Positions 4,201 through 57,085 of a stretch of 64,000 bases of DNA are shown here, piece after piece. The notes under the pieces are model-generated. The model worked only from the letters and a program-made list of their open reading frames with translations. It made no database searches and was not told where the DNA came from. The stretch spans positions 1 through 64,000 of the IMG/VR virus record IMGVR_UViG_3300032236_001503; one strand, written 5' to 3'. Within the stretch, counting starts at the first letter, position 1, and every line of letters begins with the position of its first letter. Source of the stretch: a virus. Both the position numbers and the translations under genes were made by a program.

Positions 4201-5458
4201 AGTTTCCAGTTGCGGTATTATTATAACCACCAGTTATAACAGTATAACATGCTGATGCTGTGTTGTTTTTACCACCAACGACACTTGAGTAATTAGCAGA
4301 AGCGGTATTATTAACACCACCTAAAATATTCGCATAACCTGATATATTTGTATTGTTATTGGTTCCAATCGATATTGATTTATTGCCACTAATTTGACCA
4401 TTTACGGTAAGCGTTGCATTTGGAGTTGATGTATTAATACCAACATTTGCGTTTTGATCTATTGCAAATGCTGTGATTGATGGTGTATTACCAAATACTG
4501 AACTAATGTAATATTTGTTTTGTAATTCATCATAAGATGTAATGAAACCAGACATTGCGTATGTTCCGGTTCCATATTCACCAATAAAAAGAACAGGAGC
4601 TAAACCATCATTTGCAATACCATTTGTTAAATAAACATAACTTGTGGATAATACAGGTGTAAAAATATTACTTTGTGCGCTAATATTTCCTGCAACGGTT
4701 AAATTCGCATTTGGCTTTGATGTACCAATACCAACATAACCACTTGTTGAGCCATCAACATAAAAAGCAGTATTAGAATTAACAGTCGCTACGATAACTG
4801 GATACGGGCCAGTTTGCGTTAAATTTAATGTTGTTCTGGTTCCATTATTAATTATATCTAAACCTTGACTAGAGAGAACCGCTGTTGTATTTGTTATAAT
4901 TCCACCAGAAACATAGAAATTACCAGTTACACGCAAATTACCATTTGCATTGATGTCTCCAACGACATCCAATGGATAAACTGGGTGTGTATTACCAATA
5001 CCCACTTTACCACCCATGAATGTTGCTACTGGTACACCTGATGGTGATTGTACATATATACCATTGCCACCTGAAATCATACCAGTAACAGTTTGGTATC
5101 CTATTACCGTAGAATTACCACTTAATCCTAAATTTCCTGCTGCAAAAATATTACCATTTGTTACTAAATTGTTGATATTTAATGCACCATTTATATACTG
5201 ATCACCAGTTGAACTTATATTACCAACAACCGTTAATGCTGCATTTGGATGACCTGTACCAATACCAACATTACCACCCATGAATACGGCAGAATATGCA
5301 CTTGTGGGTGGAACTACAGCACTTAACCCACCCGATAAAACGAAATCACCATAAAAGGGAGCGTCAAAACTGGCTATCGGATCATGAGATGAATCAGGAT
5401 TTGTAGCTGATGCATAAGTGTGGTGATTCTGTCTATGATATTTGGAATTCGGTCTCAT
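1271..5458 (-). CDS. Giant tail fibre: YadA-head-like repeats plus C-terminal RCC1-type propeller
   Basis: 1395 residues. From about residue 60 there are several VGIGT-(S/T)-xPNAxLTVxGxIS modules, a common phage fibre motif. Residues about 360-790 are dozens of hairpin repeats of the form GGxxNxASGxxSxVxGG, the YadA-head-like fold of trimeric adhesins. Residues about 830-905 hold two GGSGYxxPPxVTI glycine-rich units. From about residue 915 to the end come repeats with the WGYNGYGQLG signature and alternating DGxxWxxGxN segments, which is the RCC1 beta-propeller pattern. Likely role: a trimeric fibre carrying three propellers as a host-contact tip (inference). The gene is co-directional with the other fibre and baseplate genes. 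RCC1 repeats are best known from eukaryotic GEFs, but here no GEF function is implied. Confidence 0.8.
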   Translation of the reverse strand: MRPNSKYHRQNHHTYASATNPDSSHDPIASFDAPFYGDFVLSGGLSAVVPPTSAYSAVFMGGNVGIGTGHPNAALTVVGNISSTGDQYINGALNINNLVTNGNIFAAGNLGLSGNSTVIGYQTVTGMISGGNGIYVQSPSGVPVATFMGGKVGIGNTHPVYPLDVVGDINANGNLRVTGNFYVSGGIITNTTAVLSSQGLDIINNGTRTTLNLTQTGPYPVIVATVNSNTAFYVDGSTSGYVGIGTSKPNANLTVAGNISAQSNIFTPVLSTSYVYLTNGIANDGLAPVLFIGEYGTGTYAMSGFITSYDELQNKYYISSVFGNTPSITAFAIDQNANVGINTSTPNATLTVNGQISGNKSISIGTNNNTNISGYANILGGVNNTASANYSSVVGGKNNTASACYTVITGGYNNTATGNYSVVAGGISNNVTANCSSITGGSSNQVACTFSSVVGGRCNNVCNCYSNITGGQYNTTSGAYSNIGGGYCNNATCTAASVLGGQFNNACNFASTVIGGSCNTASGRYSTVAGGSCNTTNGLVSFVAAGSANNTNNQANTFILGSNITAGQPNFTYVNNISSCGYVYGNYIGNGSNLTGVLASGSFFTTGTSLSSLRYVYGGNCACANFSSVFGGQNNLITSAGVDSSITGGAGNLISACYSHIDGGLNNTASGVYSSVGGGICNTASGRASTIAGGGNNQAGYESTVGGGAGNIANGNISTVAGGNSNTASGIYSTVAGGAINTASGSWSTVAGGSSNIASGNCSAILGGVSNNTNNQTNTFILGSNITATQPNFTYVNNLSTTGNIYTNNVVISGSVNVLGDLTNVSRAVVNGSVRNIIVGNGGSGYVTPPSVTIDAPTDIIGNNIQATAVANIAGGVVTSITVTNAGKGYLQHPNVTISGGSGSGAIAYALADYSALPNKYGRGGQTSAVLYWDGRMFSAGRSYYGTIPMGYYADIYSYTPVSVTPTDSATPYGRPVEYWQAGLSLYVLDSNGVLWASGYNNYGNLGNGSTEHETFMNKVYFGGQEGNINPKRAVVKFAVNESEDQAAYITCIAMTADGTIWTWGYNGYGQLGIGSTDGSAHPTPIPISLTNSSGIKQILNTGDSSNSQSLFILFNNGQVQGCGWTNYGELGRGSSGYGSYIPTFGNVMSGVNLPIGNVKAVYGSNGGVSGTGATYFLCNDGTLWSTGYNGIGALGLGDTTNRNYATKITSLSNIVKFETFSLIGDHTACYALDGYGQLWSWGRNTWGELGIGTTDGAAHPTPVPMHNPVYPTYRTGVAAVPNWSWSSGLVKDFTAADGAFALLTNDGRVFTCGYNGWGGLAFDSEQPYVTTLTQVKLPKQNAQSIAIVGYSNQIFLQIITQEGRVYMCGMNNYGQLGLGNANSWYYVPTETYQL

Positions 5459-5467
5459 TACTATTAA

Positions 5468-5473
5468 TAATTA
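5468..5473 (-). promoter_or_regulatory. Variant late-type motif GGATAATTA before the RCC1 fibre
   Basis: AAGGATAATTATTA lies 9 bases from the ATG at 5458. Nearly the same sequence precedes the cysteine-rich fibre gene (35751-35756), so the pair look like a shared TAATTA variant of the TAARTA motif. Confidence 0.35.
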
Positions 5474-5476
5474 TCC

Positions 5477-8400
5477 TTAAGAACTTGCATTAGGGTAAAA
5501 TGTATCATTACAACAATCTGATGATGCTTCACCCCATGTTTTTGTTAACTGTTGACTTGATGAAAATGAATATGAACTTGGGAAATTACTCTGTAATTCG
5601 GCATATGTTATTGGATTAATGTTACATATACGAATTACTGGTAATGTGAGATTGTAACACGACATGCCCTTCCAAGACCAACAGAATGGATTACTGCAAC
5701 CAGTATTAATACCAGAAAGGTTTCTGTTATCGGTAACTGTTAAATAACCTGCCAAGTAATTTAAAGCATTATATATTTTACCCAATTCTCTATTGAGAAC
5801 CTGTGGGATATTAAATTCATTTACGCCAACTTGAACATTTTCATTTTCTATATCATCAGCAAAAACTGGTCTACTTGAAACTAAAATTGGTGTTTTTGAA
5901 AAGTATTGAATTTGACCATAAGGTGTTGATTCCGTTACAATAACGAATTTTGAATTCATTGTATTTCTAAATGTTTTAATATTCTGAATCAATCGGGTAA
6001 ATGCACGATTGTAAACATTATCCATAGTAAATTCATCTCTTGATATTAGTATTTGATCCTTTGTCCAATATTGGTAAGGTAATCCTTCACCAACCTTAAA
6101 TAAGGTTACAATATCCTGACATTTTATAATACTATTTGATGTCGAAAATACTAGAGATTCACTATTTGAATATTTAGCGGAAGTAAAATTCAAAAATTCT
6201 ACACTTGGTATTTTATCAACATATGATATAAACGTTCCAGTTAATGTAAATTTGATTATTTCATTACTATATAAAACATACATGAAATTTCCATTTTTAT
6301 CAAAGATGATCTTAATTGGTTTTGCTTTAAGATTTATTCCATTTTGATCGGTTAATTGGAAACTGGTGATTAAATCACCCATAGTATCAAAAACATAAAT
6401 CTTATTACTGATTGTTAAAATATATGGAAATTCTGTCGTTGGGTGTACAGCAAAACATTCTGGATTATTTGTATAAATTGGTTTAATTGAAGTTCCCACA
6501 TTTATATCAAATTCTTCGTTATAATATGTATAAATCCAGTTTAAATCTTCAGTATAATGTTTTAAACAATGGTTTTGATAGTCTAAAACATAAACATTAT
6601 CATTTAAATAAATTAATTCTGTGGGAGAATTAAATTTATTTGGATCTTGTCTTCCACCATAGTTTCCAACCACTAATTGAATATTAATTTCGTTTATGTA
6701 ATCAAAACTTAAATTGAGTTTATATATTTTATTGTAATATTGATCTAAGACATATAAATTTTGACTCGGTTCATCGTAATCGATTGAAACCGGATTCACT
6801 AATAATTGATATACTTCATTTATATTATCAAAAAATATTTCCGTTGGATTTGCACCAGTTGTAAATGCTCTCGCACTCAAACCATCAAGTACAAATGTGT
6901 AGTAATCAGTTTGAACTAAATCTTTAATATTTGAAAATGATGGAGATACTGCATTTTGTGCAGAACTTACGGTTGCGTAATTTGGATGAACGTAATCACC
7001 TGATAAGAAATCCTGAGTATGCCACTGAATACCTCTGCCTACATTATTTTGACTAGTACCAAGCCACCCATAGAATAATGTTGGTGAATCAGTATTAATA
7101 GTTTGGGTATTGTATATTAAATATTCCAAATTATCATAGAGACGACTCATTGCGGTATTAAATATATCCGCATCAGCATATTCATTTGGTTGAATATCAA
7201 CTTGATCCACTGTCCAAGGAAGAGTTAAATATTCCTCGGTTAATAATCTTATTTTCGATTGATCATAAGTGGGCCATGTATTATAAACTGTAATCGCATG
7301 TGTATTAGGTAATTGAAAACTTAATGATGAACCATTGTTATAATTAACTTGATATGATAACGTGTATGTTCCCTCTGATTGATAAGAATGTTGTGTTATA
7401 TCATTGACTAAATGATAAGCTGATAAGCCATCTCCAAAATATATGTTATAAGAAGTTATTGCTACATTTGCTTCTGGTGTATTTTGTAGATAAGGTGTTT
7501 TGAATTGTATAAAAATATTATCGCCTGTTGTTGCGTAATAAGATGAAATATAAATTTCTGGCTTTACTGCTGTTGCATAAACAACAAATGATTCTGTTGC
7601 TGTTGTAAGTTTCTGTTCAATCACATTCCATGAATCATATGATCCAGTATAGCTAGTAGCTAAATTGTATGTAGTTGATGGGATGTAAGCTGAGAGTGTA
7701 GCCGATGCATTTAATAATAAATGATTTTGAACATAGTTATCAACCGTTAATGGTTGGGAACCATCTCCAATATTTAAGATAAACAAATCATAAAGACCAT
7801 TTACCATTGGCACATTTATCTGACTAACCCATCCACCCGAAAGCGACGATAATGAATATGTTACATATGAATTAGGGTTTTGTAATGCTCGTACAGGTGT
7901 ATTTGCTGTATTAGGAACAGTGAGTGTTTGTAAAACACCAACGAATATATTATTATCAAGATCGATTGATGTTACTGGTGTAAATTGTAAACCTAGTTGT
8001 GTTACTGTATTGTAATCAAAAACAACAGCTGTATCTACAGTTGAAAACTGTAATTGTAAAGTATCATAACCAACCAATTTAGGTGATTGATTAAATGCTG
8101 ATAATCCATTTTTTGAATATGTTAAATTATTAAAACTATTAGTGTTTGATGCAATTGAATAATTTCCTAGATATAAACCAGATGTAGAATTGTTTGAAGT
8201 TAACCCGATATAATTTAAAGAGTTAACTGATCTACGAGGGAAAAAATTATTGAATGCCGTTAGGTAAACAGTTAATCCTCTATTTGATGATAGATCGTTT
8301 ACATAAGGTAAATTAATTAAGTGATTATTGGTATTAAAAGTGGAAAATAATGATACCGATGGGTCATTTAAATTTGCATAACCGTATTGATATAACCCAC

Positions 8401-52813: not shown

Positions 52814-53425
52814 TTATGCACAGCTTTCAACCAAATTTGCTTCAGCATCTCTTCTTTCAAGTAACCCATCTAAGCCTTGACCTTGCCAAATTCTTTTCAT
52901 ATTTCTTATCTGTTGAGCAATTCCTTTATAATCTTTTTTAGGAACTAAGTCTCTTATGTTTCTCATTTCTGTTCTACTTTCACCTTCTAATGAACCACCT
53001 CTATTAAAAACGAGTGATACTAATGCACCATATGCATTGTCACATAATTCCTCCGCATGCGGAAAAGTCTTTTCGGTGAGTTGTGCGAATTTGGGCCACG
53101 TTAATCGGTCGAATATATCAATTGCTTGATCATAACTAACTGTTATACCTAATGGTTTAACTTGCTCCACATATTCCTTCCCAAGTTGCCCAGTTTTACC
53201 TGAAGCTTGTTTAACTGCATCAAGTTGTTTTTGTGGTAAAAAATAAAATATTTTTTGTAACTCATTGGGATTATAATAACCACAATCAACACCAATGCCA
53301 AGGGTTAGTCCGCTGTGACCCCCGGGCCACGTAGGATGAGATAGAAATTTATCGTAATAAGATTTTCCACCACCAATTTCATATTCTAAAATTAAACTTA
53401 ATGCTTTTGGACTTGGTTGTTTCAT
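52814..53425 (-). CDS. Endolysin, lysozyme-like peptidoglycan hydrolase
   Basis: 203 residues. Near the N-terminus a candidate acid, Glu14 or Glu16 (ILEYEIGGGKSYYDKF), is followed by the glycosidase loop PTWPGGHSGLTLGIGVDCGY. Later come ALVSLVFNRGGSL with SRTEMRNI and the RIWQGQGLDGLLERRDAEA end. The Glu-then-GxTxGxGxD layout is that of GH24-type lysozymes. There is no signal peptide, so release would need the adjacent holin. It overlaps the holin candidate by 4 bases, forming a lysis operon. Confidence 0.8.
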   Translation of the reverse strand: MKQPSPKALSLILEYEIGGGKSYYDKFLSHPTWPGGHSGLTLGIGVDCGYYNPNELQKIFYFLPQKQLDAVKQASGKTGQLGKEYVEQVKPLGITVSYDQAIDIFDRLTWPKFAQLTEKTFPHAEELCDNAYGALVSLVFNRGGSLEGESRTEMRNIRDLVPKKDYKGIAQQIRNMKRIWQGQGLDGLLERRDAEANLVESCA

Positions 53426-53898
53426 AATTCAGTTATATTATAATCTTGTTCTTTTGCGTTATTTGTAAGAATTTCTTCAATAATATTTTCAGCTTTTTGT
53501 TCATTTGAATTTGAATTTAAAGTTTGGTCTACCGATTGTGCATCACCCGATACGCTTACACTTGATGAACTATTATATTTTAAATCAACTAATCCTTGCG
53601 CACCTAAATAAACAGATATAACAAGAGCAATTTGCTCCATGATTTTTGTAAAAATTGTAGCATAGGTTGTAATAACGATGTCATGATCTTTAGGAATTAC
53701 AAAAAGAATACCAACAGCAATAAAAAACATTGTGACAATTATAAGCAAAGAAGTCATAATGATAAAAAACTTCTTTGATGCCAAATGATTTGTTTGCTCC
53801 ATCTGTTTCTCGTATTCAGGTGGAGTATTGGGTGGTGCTTTTCCATTTGTAAGAAAAGCAGCAGCGGTTTGAGCTATTGTAACTATATGTTGCCACAT
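53422..53898 (-). CDS. Holin candidate, two membrane helices
   Basis: 158 residues. Two hydrophobic segments, about 43-69 (FFIIMTSLLIIVTMFFIAVG) and about 77-105 (IMEQIALVISVYLGAQGLV), are separated by a short IPKDHD loop. N- and C-terminal tails are polar and Ser/Asn-rich, so both probably face the same side of the inner membrane. The position directly before the endolysin with a 4-base overlap supports a class II holin role. Size is larger than typical holins; it could also be another lysis regulator. Confidence 0.6.
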   Translation of the reverse strand: MWQHIVTIAQTAAAFLTNGKAPPNTPPEYEKQMEQTNHLASKKFFIIMTSLLIIVTMFFIAVGILFVIPKDHDIVITTYATIFTKIMEQIALVISVYLGAQGLVDLKYNSSSSVSVSGDAQSVDQTLNSNSNEQKAENIIEEILTNNAKEQDYNITEL

Positions 53899-53903
53899 AT
53901 AGC

Positions 53904-53909
53904 TACTTA
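53904..53909 (-). promoter_or_regulatory. Late-type motif TAAGTA before the holin candidate
   Basis: GAATAAGTAGCTAT, 5 bases from the ATG at 53898. Confidence 0.5.
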
Positions 53910-53919
53910 TTCAAGTGGC

Positions 53920-54123
53920 TTAAACTAAAGTACCTAAAATAAATCCAACTATAAAACCAATTATTGCAGCCGTTTTAACTGGATGGGTTTTACCCCATGC
54001 ATAAAGAGCCGTTATAATGTTAAATGTTTCTTGTTTAACAATTGGTGCTTCTGTTTCAATTTTTGAAACATATTGATTAATATATTTTTCAGTTGATGAT
54101 ACTGTTTGCGTTAATGTTGTCAT
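53920..54123 (-). CDS. Small membrane protein of the lysis region
   Basis: 67 residues with one C-terminal membrane helix containing glycine-zipper spacing (AAIIGFIVGFILGTLV). The first 45 residues are polar. It could be a second holin, an antiholin or a membrane regulator. It overlaps the spanin candidate by 4 bases upstream and is followed 21 bases later by the holin candidate. No family recognised beyond these features. Confidence 0.6.
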   Translation of the reverse strand: MTTLTQTVSSTEKYINQYVSKIETEAPIVKQETFNIITALYAWGKTHPVKTAAIIGFIVGFILGTLV

Positions 54124-54701
54124 AAGAAGAATAAACCATTTGCTTTAGCGTAGAAATAAAGTGCAATCAAAGCAAGAAGACTAACTATGATAACGTTTCT
54201 CCAAAGAATTGCTAAATCTTTTTTAACTAAAAGTTTTTCATCAGCATTCAACTTGTCGATAATTTTACTATTATTATTTTTAAGGGTTGCAATTTCCTTT
54301 GTTGTATTTTCTTTATCCTTTAAAAGATTTTTATTATCATTTGTCAATTGTTGCTTGGTAGCACGATCTTTTAATAAATCCTGATACTCATTAGAACCAA
54401 CAACTACAACCTTTGAACCTTGATATTGTTTTGGTACAAGAATAACTTCCGTTTTATCACCTTGTTTTGAGTTTTTAGCAACCGTACCAGCTTCATAGAC
54501 TGATGCAATCGGAATTCTATGTTTTGGTGGCTTTACAATTCGTGTTGCTTGATCAGAATAATAATAAGCAAGGTCAATTCTTCCTTTATTTACGGAATCA
54601 TTGGTAGCGTATGTGTTCTGACTCAACATTTCAGTCTGTTTTTCAGTATAAACAGTACATGAAGCTAATAATAGTGCTAAAAATACAAATAATTTTCTCA
54701 T
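54120..54701 (-). CDS. Candidate unimolecular spanin (u-spanin)
   Basis: 193 residues. The N-terminus is a lipoprotein signal, KLFVFLALLLASC, with lipobox LLAS-Cys15. The C-terminal 25 residues hold a membrane helix (NVIIVSLLALIALYFYA, about 169-185). Between them is a charged coiled coil near residues 110-160 (QLTNDNKNLLKDKENTTKE). An outer-membrane lipid anchor plus an inner-membrane helix is the plan of unimolecular spanins, which join the two membranes at the last step of Gram-negative lysis. It lies upstream of the membrane protein, holin and endolysin genes. It could also be an ordinary lipoprotein with a C-terminal anchor. Confidence 0.68.
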   Translation of the reverse strand: MRKLFVFLALLLASCTVYTEKQTEMLSQNTYATNDSVNKGRIDLAYYYSDQATRIVKPPKHRIPIASVYEAGTVAKNSKQGDKTEVILVPKQYQGSKVVVVGSNEYQDLLKDRATKQQLTNDNKNLLKDKENTTKEIATLKNNNSKIIDKLNADEKLLVKKDLAILWRNVIIVSLLALIALYFYAKANGLFFL

Positions 54702-56650: not shown

Positions 56651-56656
56651 TATTTA
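56651..56656 (-). promoter_or_regulatory. Late-type motif TAAATA before the zinc-knuckle gene
   Basis: GACTAAATATTAGATA, 7 bases from the ATG at 56643; it overlaps the 3' end of the GIY-YIG gene. Confidence 0.5.
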
Positions 56657-57085
56657 GTCTAAAATACCGAATTTTTCTAGCTCTTGTTTGGGTGCTTTAC
56701 CAATTCTCAGGTTCAAAATACCATTATAGTAGTCTTTTCGGAATAAAACATCCTTTTCCATCTGCTCTTTTGCTTCAAAGTAAGCTAATGCCCATTTTGA
56801 ATCACATGTTCTCAATATTTTAAAAATAAACTTATCCTTTCCGTATTTTTTAACATCTTCGATTAGTTCATTAGAAGAGCTTGTGTAGGATTTCCAATCC
56901 GATTCCTTGGAATCAATACGATTTCTAGTTTTGCCCTTTAATGGTTTTCTTTTAATACGAGAAAAACATTGCTTTTTACCAATATACTTTTTATTTGTAA
57001 CAGTATTGGTTATTTCGTATATAAAGCCGAAAGTTTCTTCTGTTAAATGAACAGATTCATTTAAAATCCAATGTCCAGTATCCAT
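56654..57085 (-). CDS. GIY-YIG-like endonuclease
   Basis: 143 residues. The GIY-like part is IYEITNT (22-28) and YIG is at 34-36 (KKYIGKKQCFS). A basic stretch SRIKRKPLKGKTRN follows and a Glu sits in ALAYFEAKEQM, placed like the metal-binding Glu of this superfamily. The first motif has FIYEI instead of canonical GIY. Similar genes are annotated as putative endonucleases in T4-like phages, some mobile (Seg family). No target can be named. The start overlaps the stop of the 79-residue gene by one base. Confidence 0.6.
   Translation of the reverse strand: MDTGHWILNESVHLTEETFGFIYEITNTVTNKKYIGKKQCFSRIKRKPLKGKTRNRIDSKESDWKSYTSSSNELIEDVKKYGKDKFIFKILRTCDSKWALAYFEAKEQMEKDVLFRKDYYNGILNLRIGKAPKQELEKFGILD

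Follow-up and report, generated by a model that had tools for sequence, protein, structure and literature searches.

A Probable Lysis Module with a Candidate Unimolecular Spanin of Predicted Helical Fold in an Uncultured T4-like Phage

Introduction

The order of events in lambda-type lysis is established: the holin acts first, the endolysin follows, and the spanin comes last. Two-component spanins reportedly obey a disulfide rule, by which at least one periplasmic Cys is present for formation of a covalent dimer. Phage T4 has a separated spanin pair, PseT.3/PseT.2, that is not located near t and e, as stated in the available text of PMC6139136. The prototype of the unimolecular spanins (u-spanins) is gp11 of phage T1, and the available text of two sources describes its periplasmic domain as mainly beta (PMC6139136, PMC7830690). 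The same texts attribute a mainly beta structure to the published u-spanins in general, along with an evolutionary origin separate from that of the two-component spanins, and they treat the mechanism by which u-spanins breach the outer membrane as unresolved (PMC6139136, PMC7830690). All 58 published u-spanins lack a periplasmic Cys according to the accessible part of PMC6139136.

Among cultured phages, unimolecular spanins were annotated by the authors in the flavobacterial phages Ingeline and Nekkels (accessible part of PMC8776804). A 2025 survey of lytic proteins in IMG/VR used profile searches to collect 261,425 spanins and reports, in its available sections, that Bacteroidetes phages use only u-spanins (PMC12596118). 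The spanins of this survey may include some members of the family that we present below.

Results

Layout of the Lysis Cassette

The window analysed here is a stretch of 64,000 nucleotides (positions 1 to 64,000 of IMG/VR record IMGVR_UViG_3300032236_001503) and is part of a virus record of 163,237 bases, which encodes major head, portal, and baseplate-wedge proteins. The head protein is 33–35% identical to those of the best 25 listed phage records; 24 of these 25 are cyanobacterial phages, and several of the proteins are annotated as gp23. Because of this likeness of the head protein we use the label T4-like for this uncultured phage. Eighteen tRNA genes are present at 130–149 kb of the same record (G000; 16 in L178 and 2 in L179). 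Start sites are A-rich, and Shine-Dalgarno-like motifs were found at 15 of 142 sites compared to a shuffled mean of 7.5 and a shuffled maximum of 17, which is a weak signal. Occurrences of a Bacteroidetes promoter pattern numbered 8 versus 11.0 expected, which is no enrichment, and no relative was found when GTDB genomes were scanned with the alignments of the spanin and of the holin.

An earlier note, made from the letters of the window alone, had read positions 52814–54701 as a Gram-negative lysis cassette with a u-spanin candidate. This is still the best reading, and the homologues described below add support to it by their lipobox Cys, their anchor, their Cys-free periplasmic part, and their linkage to holin and endolysin genes. 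We consider it likely that the region serves this uncultured T4-like phage as its lysis module, that the host is Gram-negative, and that the module includes a u-spanin. The genes of the module are listed in Table 1. The earlier note had described them as overlapping in order. Three overlaps of 4 bases are real, among them the one at the start of the spanin gene, where the partner is an upstream ORF of 148 aa without a Pfam or PHROG match below 0.01. The genes for the 67-aa and the 158-aa proteins, however, do not overlap but are separated by 21 bases (53899–53919).

Table 1. Features of the predicted lysis module (positions refer to the window).
Feature	Position	Strand	Remarks
Candidate u-spanin, 193 aa	54120..54701	-	signal with lipobox LLAS|C15, hydrophobic C-terminal anchor
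Small one-helix membrane protein, 67 aa	53920..54123	-	C-terminal hydrophobic motif around GFILGTL kept
Probable holin, 158 aa	53422..53898	-	strong segment 50-68, weaker one at about 86-104
Endolysin, GH24/pesticin-like, cytoplasmic (non-SAR), 203 aa	52814..53425	-	PF00959
ATGA overlap, upstream 148-aa ORF/spanin gene	54698..54701	-	
ATGA overlap, spanin gene/67-aa gene	54120..54123	-	
ATGA overlap, holin gene/endolysin gene	53422..53425	-	-4 spacing recurs in many homologous cassettes

Genes resembling GIY-YIG homing endonucleases lie in or near several lysis cassettes: in the window at 56654–57085 (SegE, 9.8e-31), at L023:3759-4454 (NUMOD3 above cut-off), and at L167:3217-4011 (recognised by eye only).

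The Spanin Candidate and Its Family

The lipobox of the 193-aa protein (L-A-S-C15) is in line with the consensus given in the accessible part of PMC6139136, and its C-terminal hydrophobic stretch (residues 163–181) reaches a hydropathy of 2.36. The record contains 349 ORFs that reach 60 aa, and among them one other un-nested ORF combines a lipobox in a hydrophobic signal with a later membrane segment; this ORF has 296 aa and four hydrophobic segments.

Conservation is stronger evidence for a spanin than this rarity within the record. Scans of IMG/VR yielded at least 77 distinct spanin sequences and at least 82 distinct holin loci, the window being included in both numbers. The other members among the 77 collected spanins are 37–72% identical to that of the window. 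Both the lipobox Cys15 and the C-terminal membrane segment, which had been recognised in the window from its letters, are kept in 77 of 77 distinct members; S, G, or A is found at position −1 in all 77 and T at position +2 in 73. One of the retrieval patterns contained the Cys motif itself, and the Cys was present as well in all 15 members that fell outside this pattern. A periplasmic Cys is lacking in the window spanin, as in 75 of the 77 distinct members (L041 and L043 carry one).

For the window spanin, neither Pfam nor PHROG gave a match below 0.01. Weak matches to the PHROG entry 'Rz-like spanin' were obtained for 4 of 57 members (best 0.0021), alongside weak matches to unrelated families, and coiled-coil composition could explain all of them. 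A tblastn search of 50,697 phage records found no relative of the window spanin or holin. In the viral fold search, A0A6J7X9M4 was the single match below 0.001; it is 44% identical, uncharacterised, and encoded by an uncultured phage. The best match in the PDB fold search had an E value of 2.2. This spanin family was not described in any paper found in the literature searched.

An AlphaFold2 model of the spanin, calculated from 57 sequences (pLDDT 85.8, pTM 0.64), consists of a signal helix, a helical hairpin (24–55), two short strands (about 68–86), and a helix (113–187) that ends as the membrane anchor. According to the model, the periplasmic part would be mainly helical, with the last helix continuing into the membrane. 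The aligned helix region contains no proline in 3850 cells, and its periodicity at 3.5 was matched by just 13 of 2000 shuffles. The coiled coil claimed by the earlier note is supported insofar as the heptad period beats most shuffles, but the plain amphipathic period of 3.6 scores higher. A coiled coil is likely for the modelled helix, and a plain amphipathic helix is the alternative.

Linkage of the Spanin Genes to Holin and Endolysin Genes

A gene of the holin family is located downstream of 63 of the 77 distinct spanins (62 and the window), at a distance of −1 to 1098 bases. It is missing in 11 cases despite sufficient room and in 3 cases without such room. Viewed from the holin, a u-spanin is found upstream in 60 of the 81 distinct loci other than the window; a GH24-type endolysin follows downstream in 57 of these 60, is absent in 2 that have room for it, and could not be accommodated in 1. 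At L029, one of the 11 spanin loci that lack the holin family despite room, the endolysin is preceded by a short membrane protein whose tail is similar.

Ten of the 77 distinct spanins stand alone, with no recognisable holin or endolysin nearby (the downstream side was viewed in 8, the upstream side in 4). The 11 fragmentary records that cover all ten gave no match to the holin alignment, to PF00959, or to the window endolysin, with part of these searches run without a positive control. Such separate homologues would be expected if the protein were a tether, a superinfection-exclusion factor, or an envelope-stress factor that merely lies beside lysis genes, and the lack of likeness to T1 gp11, together with the different predicted fold class, also fits such a role. 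The frequent position directly ahead of a holin-family gene argues against it, as do 18 related loci in which the slot is filled by a lipoprotein and a coiled-coil membrane protein, the two sets never occurring together in the records searched. We regard such a bystander role as unlikely; as far as the sequences tell, the 193-aa protein probably links both membranes of the bacterium and later fuses them.

The lone u-spanins include L046, L057, L059, L065, L069, L083, L089, and L092. Downstream of the one at L046, an ORF (5262-5837) resembles Peptidase_M99, just below the cut-off. Some cassettes carry additional ORFs. An ORF of about 215 aa, membrane-anchored as judged by eye, is located between spanin and holin at L080:4768-5415 and L086:4761-5411; the L080 copy had no Pfam match below 0.01. 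At L012:6402-7139, an ORF between holin and endolysin shows weak likeness to ART-PolyVal, an ADP-ribosyltransferase (PF18760, 1.1e-4, below cut-off).

Holin Candidate, 67-aa Protein, and Endolysin

As expected for a holin, the 158-aa protein is a membrane protein encoded beside a non-SAR endolysin; it ends in a hydrophilic tail with a conserved NxKExDY motif. The two helices assigned to it earlier hold for the strong first segment, while the second reaches just 1.56 in the window; in 55 of the 82 family members it reaches at least 1.6. Nine members of the family were scanned and matched no known holin family: a PHROG holin was hit by one at 0.043, and the best Pfam match, MgtE at 0.0025, was likewise obtained for one of the nine. 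The family partners both types of spanin described here and, in two loci, another type of endolysin. Since it is the constant element across loci, its identity as a holin is supported, and we classify the 158-aa protein as a probable holin on the basis of sequence. T4 holin T (PF11031) had no match in the record at E values up to 1.

For the 67-aa protein 24 distinct homologues were found. Its gene was detected (HMM search of ORFs of at least 40 aa) in 22 of the 60 holin loci that have a u-spanin, whereas the remaining 21 holin loci gave no hit, and is for this reason considered accessory or optional. Its short hydrophobic C-terminal helix contains a GxxxG motif which, together with the weak second segment of the 158-aa protein in the window, would be compatible with reversed roles: the 67-aa protein would be the actual holin, of the pinholin type, and the 158-aa protein would act as antiholin or regulate lysis. 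Pinholins are usually paired with SAR endolysins, though, and the endolysin here has no SAR segment; moreover, it is the 158-aa family that is constant, while the 67-aa gene comes and goes. Such a reversal appears improbable to us, and we keep the 158-aa protein as the holin candidate. A function of the 67-aa protein as antiholin or second holin is a guess.

The assignment of the 203-aa protein as a GH24-like endolysin is confirmed by the Pfam family Phage_lysozyme (PF00959), which was matched at 1.6e-8 with 35.4 bits versus a cut-off of 22.3; this is the only place in the record with such a match. PF16754 was matched below its cut-off (1e-4). Residues E16, T41, and D47, each present in 75 of 77 distinct sequences, presumably resemble the catalytic residues of pesticin. 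The enzyme shares with the GH24/pesticin lysozymes both the Phage_lysozyme match above cut-off and these three conserved residues. Its maximum hydropathy over 19 residues is 0.51, with no SAR-like or signal segment, and it should therefore need a holin. Two relatives were found in cultured phages, the closer one in Xanthomonas phage AhaSv (41% identical). At L007:401-1417 and L008:1717-2733, the endolysin homologue has about 130 extra N-terminal residues, hydrophobic as judged by eye, and is perhaps membrane-tethered or fused to a holin.

A Two-Gene Set in the Spanin Slot

In the slot upstream of the holin, 18 of the 82 distinct loci (window included) carry another gene set and 3 carry neither set. 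Inspection of 17 of these 18 loci revealed a lipoprotein of 67–95 aa and a coiled-coil protein of 164–178 aa. The lipobox Cys of the lipoprotein is invariant in 16 aligned sequences. The coiled-coil protein has an N-terminal hydrophobic signal, a helical middle part, and, at its C-terminus, one or two hydrophobic segments that exceed the threshold; 2 of 16 weakly match the PHROG entry 'Rz-like spanin' (best 3.9e-4). A mature periplasmic Cys is absent in 10 of 16 pairs inspected, and because these depart from the disulfide rule for two-component spanins, we term the pairs spanin-like and do not count them as members of that class. When one coiled-coil protein of the pair type was modelled, a single helix resulted (2–175; pLDDT 85.1, pTM 0.42), in which membrane segments and signal cleavage are not resolved. 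Searching the phage collection by tblastn with a coiled-coil protein and a holin from pair-type loci, one of each, returned nothing.

Downstream of the 18 pair loci, a GH24-type endolysin was found in 14, the locus ends too soon in 2, and another endolysin is present in 2. In the latter (L165:4440-5150 and L167:4479-5174), the gene after the holin encodes an endolysin of a different type, which in L165 combines PG_binding_1 and Peptidase_M15_4, both above cut-off; that of L167 resembles the L165 type by eye.

The u-spanin and the two-gene set share the position upstream of a homologous holin and presumably the same job, but no homology between them is detectable. The apparent exchange is clearest between L170 (u-spanin) and L133 (pair): the holins are 78.7% and the endolysins 79.7% identical, while the spanin modules are unrelated and gave no meaningful BLASTP match. 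Similarity of the DNA begins one base ahead of the start codon of the holin. On the careful holin tree both loci are joined with a support of 100/100. Just 226 bases separate the L170 spanin from the end of its 14-kb contig, and a chimaeric assembly is possible, although the break would need to fall exactly at this position.

On the holin tree the spanin states require three changes, two of them forced by the best-supported branches. The same count was obtained from a quick tree of 82 rows, for which long branches were indicated by a warning, and from the careful tree of 71 rows, from which 11 long or odd rows had been dropped. The u-spanin was absent from all 17 pair-type records searched (all except that of L139) and from 3 of 3 neither-type records, many of them fragments (positive control 5/5). 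Conversely, the coiled-coil protein of the pair was absent from all 20 u-type records searched and from the same 3 neither-type records, again including many fragments (positive control 4/4). Judging from these sequences, related phages seem to carry two proteins in the place of the u-spanin as the result of an exchange.

We considered whether the u-spanin and the two-gene set are homologous and rejected this for lack of evidence, as the profiles share coil and signal features alone: they align over a coil stretch (probability 35%) and over the signal/lipobox stretch (59%). The u-spanin could also have arisen by fusion of a lipoprotein gene with a gene for a C-terminally anchored coiled-coil protein like that of the pair. 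Slot and orientation agree with such an origin, with the lipid N-terminal and the membrane segments C-terminal in both cases. Convergence would explain both overlapping stretches, however, and the failure of BLASTP to connect the L170 and L133 modules likewise speaks against a fusion, which we consider distinctly unlikely. We lean slightly towards exchange of unrelated modules. In this reading the u-spanins form a family whose fusion engine is helical, closer to viral fusogens of class I than to those of class II, and uncultured phages repeatedly exchanged them with an unrelated two-gene spanin with a C-terminally anchored coiled-coil subunit, the holin remaining unchanged.

Discussion

The sequences themselves show the genes and their order, the conservation, the co-occurrence of the genes, and the exchange with a two-gene set in one slot. 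For the module in the window we infer lipidation and topology of the spanin, the action of the holin, membrane fusion, and a Gram-negative host. The 158-aa protein would gather in the inner membrane and open it at a set time, allowing the GH24-type endolysin to leave the cytoplasm and to cut the peptidoglycan. The 193-aa protein, with a predicted lipid at Cys15 in the outer membrane and its C-terminal helix in the inner membrane, would, once freed from the wall mesh, oligomerise via its long helix, fold back, and fuse both membranes. The 67-aa protein would be a dispensable modulator. The structural model suggests that the fold-back involves the long helix instead of beta strands. A widespread helical u-spanin would break the rule that u-spanins are mainly beta. 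The cassettes of L170 and L133, closely related but for their spanin modules, represent a ready-made swap for studying how the outer membrane is breached; if the exchange reading is true, it provides a natural matched pair of one-piece and two-piece outer-membrane disruption.

The earlier note had called this a lysis solution distinct from that of T4. This is correct in comparison to T4 and at the level of sequence families, but the principle is not new: T1 and further phages are already known to have u-spanins. New, as far as the literature searched shows, are the spanin family, its predicted fold, and its apparent exchange with a two-gene set.

The window spanin shares with T1 gp11 the N-terminal lipobox, the C-terminal transmembrane helix, the Cys-free periplasmic part, and the location of its gene in a lysis cassette (available text of PMC6139136). 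The two proteins have no sequence similarity (hhalign probability 0.5%), and because of this, and of a model that is mainly helical where gp11 is mainly beta, we do not file the window spanin in the gp11 family. The gene order differs as well, the spanin gene being first in the window cassette and last in T1, and the endolysin here is non-SAR, whereas most endolysins associated with the gp11 family are SAR endolysins (accessible part of PMC6139136). The u-spanins of Ingeline and Nekkels can be set beside the window spanin by annotation only. T4 uses two spanin proteins compared to one here, and its T holin has no match in the record. With lambda Rz/Rz1 and T4 PseT.3/PseT.2 the window spanin has in common an outer-membrane lipoprotein, a helical or coiled-coil periplasmic part, and presumed membrane fusion. 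Lambda Rz, however, is anchored by an N-terminal helix (available text of PMC6139136), while the anchor of the window spanin is C-terminal and one protein takes the place of two; in the two-gene set, too, the clear membrane segments of the coiled-coil subunit are C-terminal, in contrast to lambda Rz.
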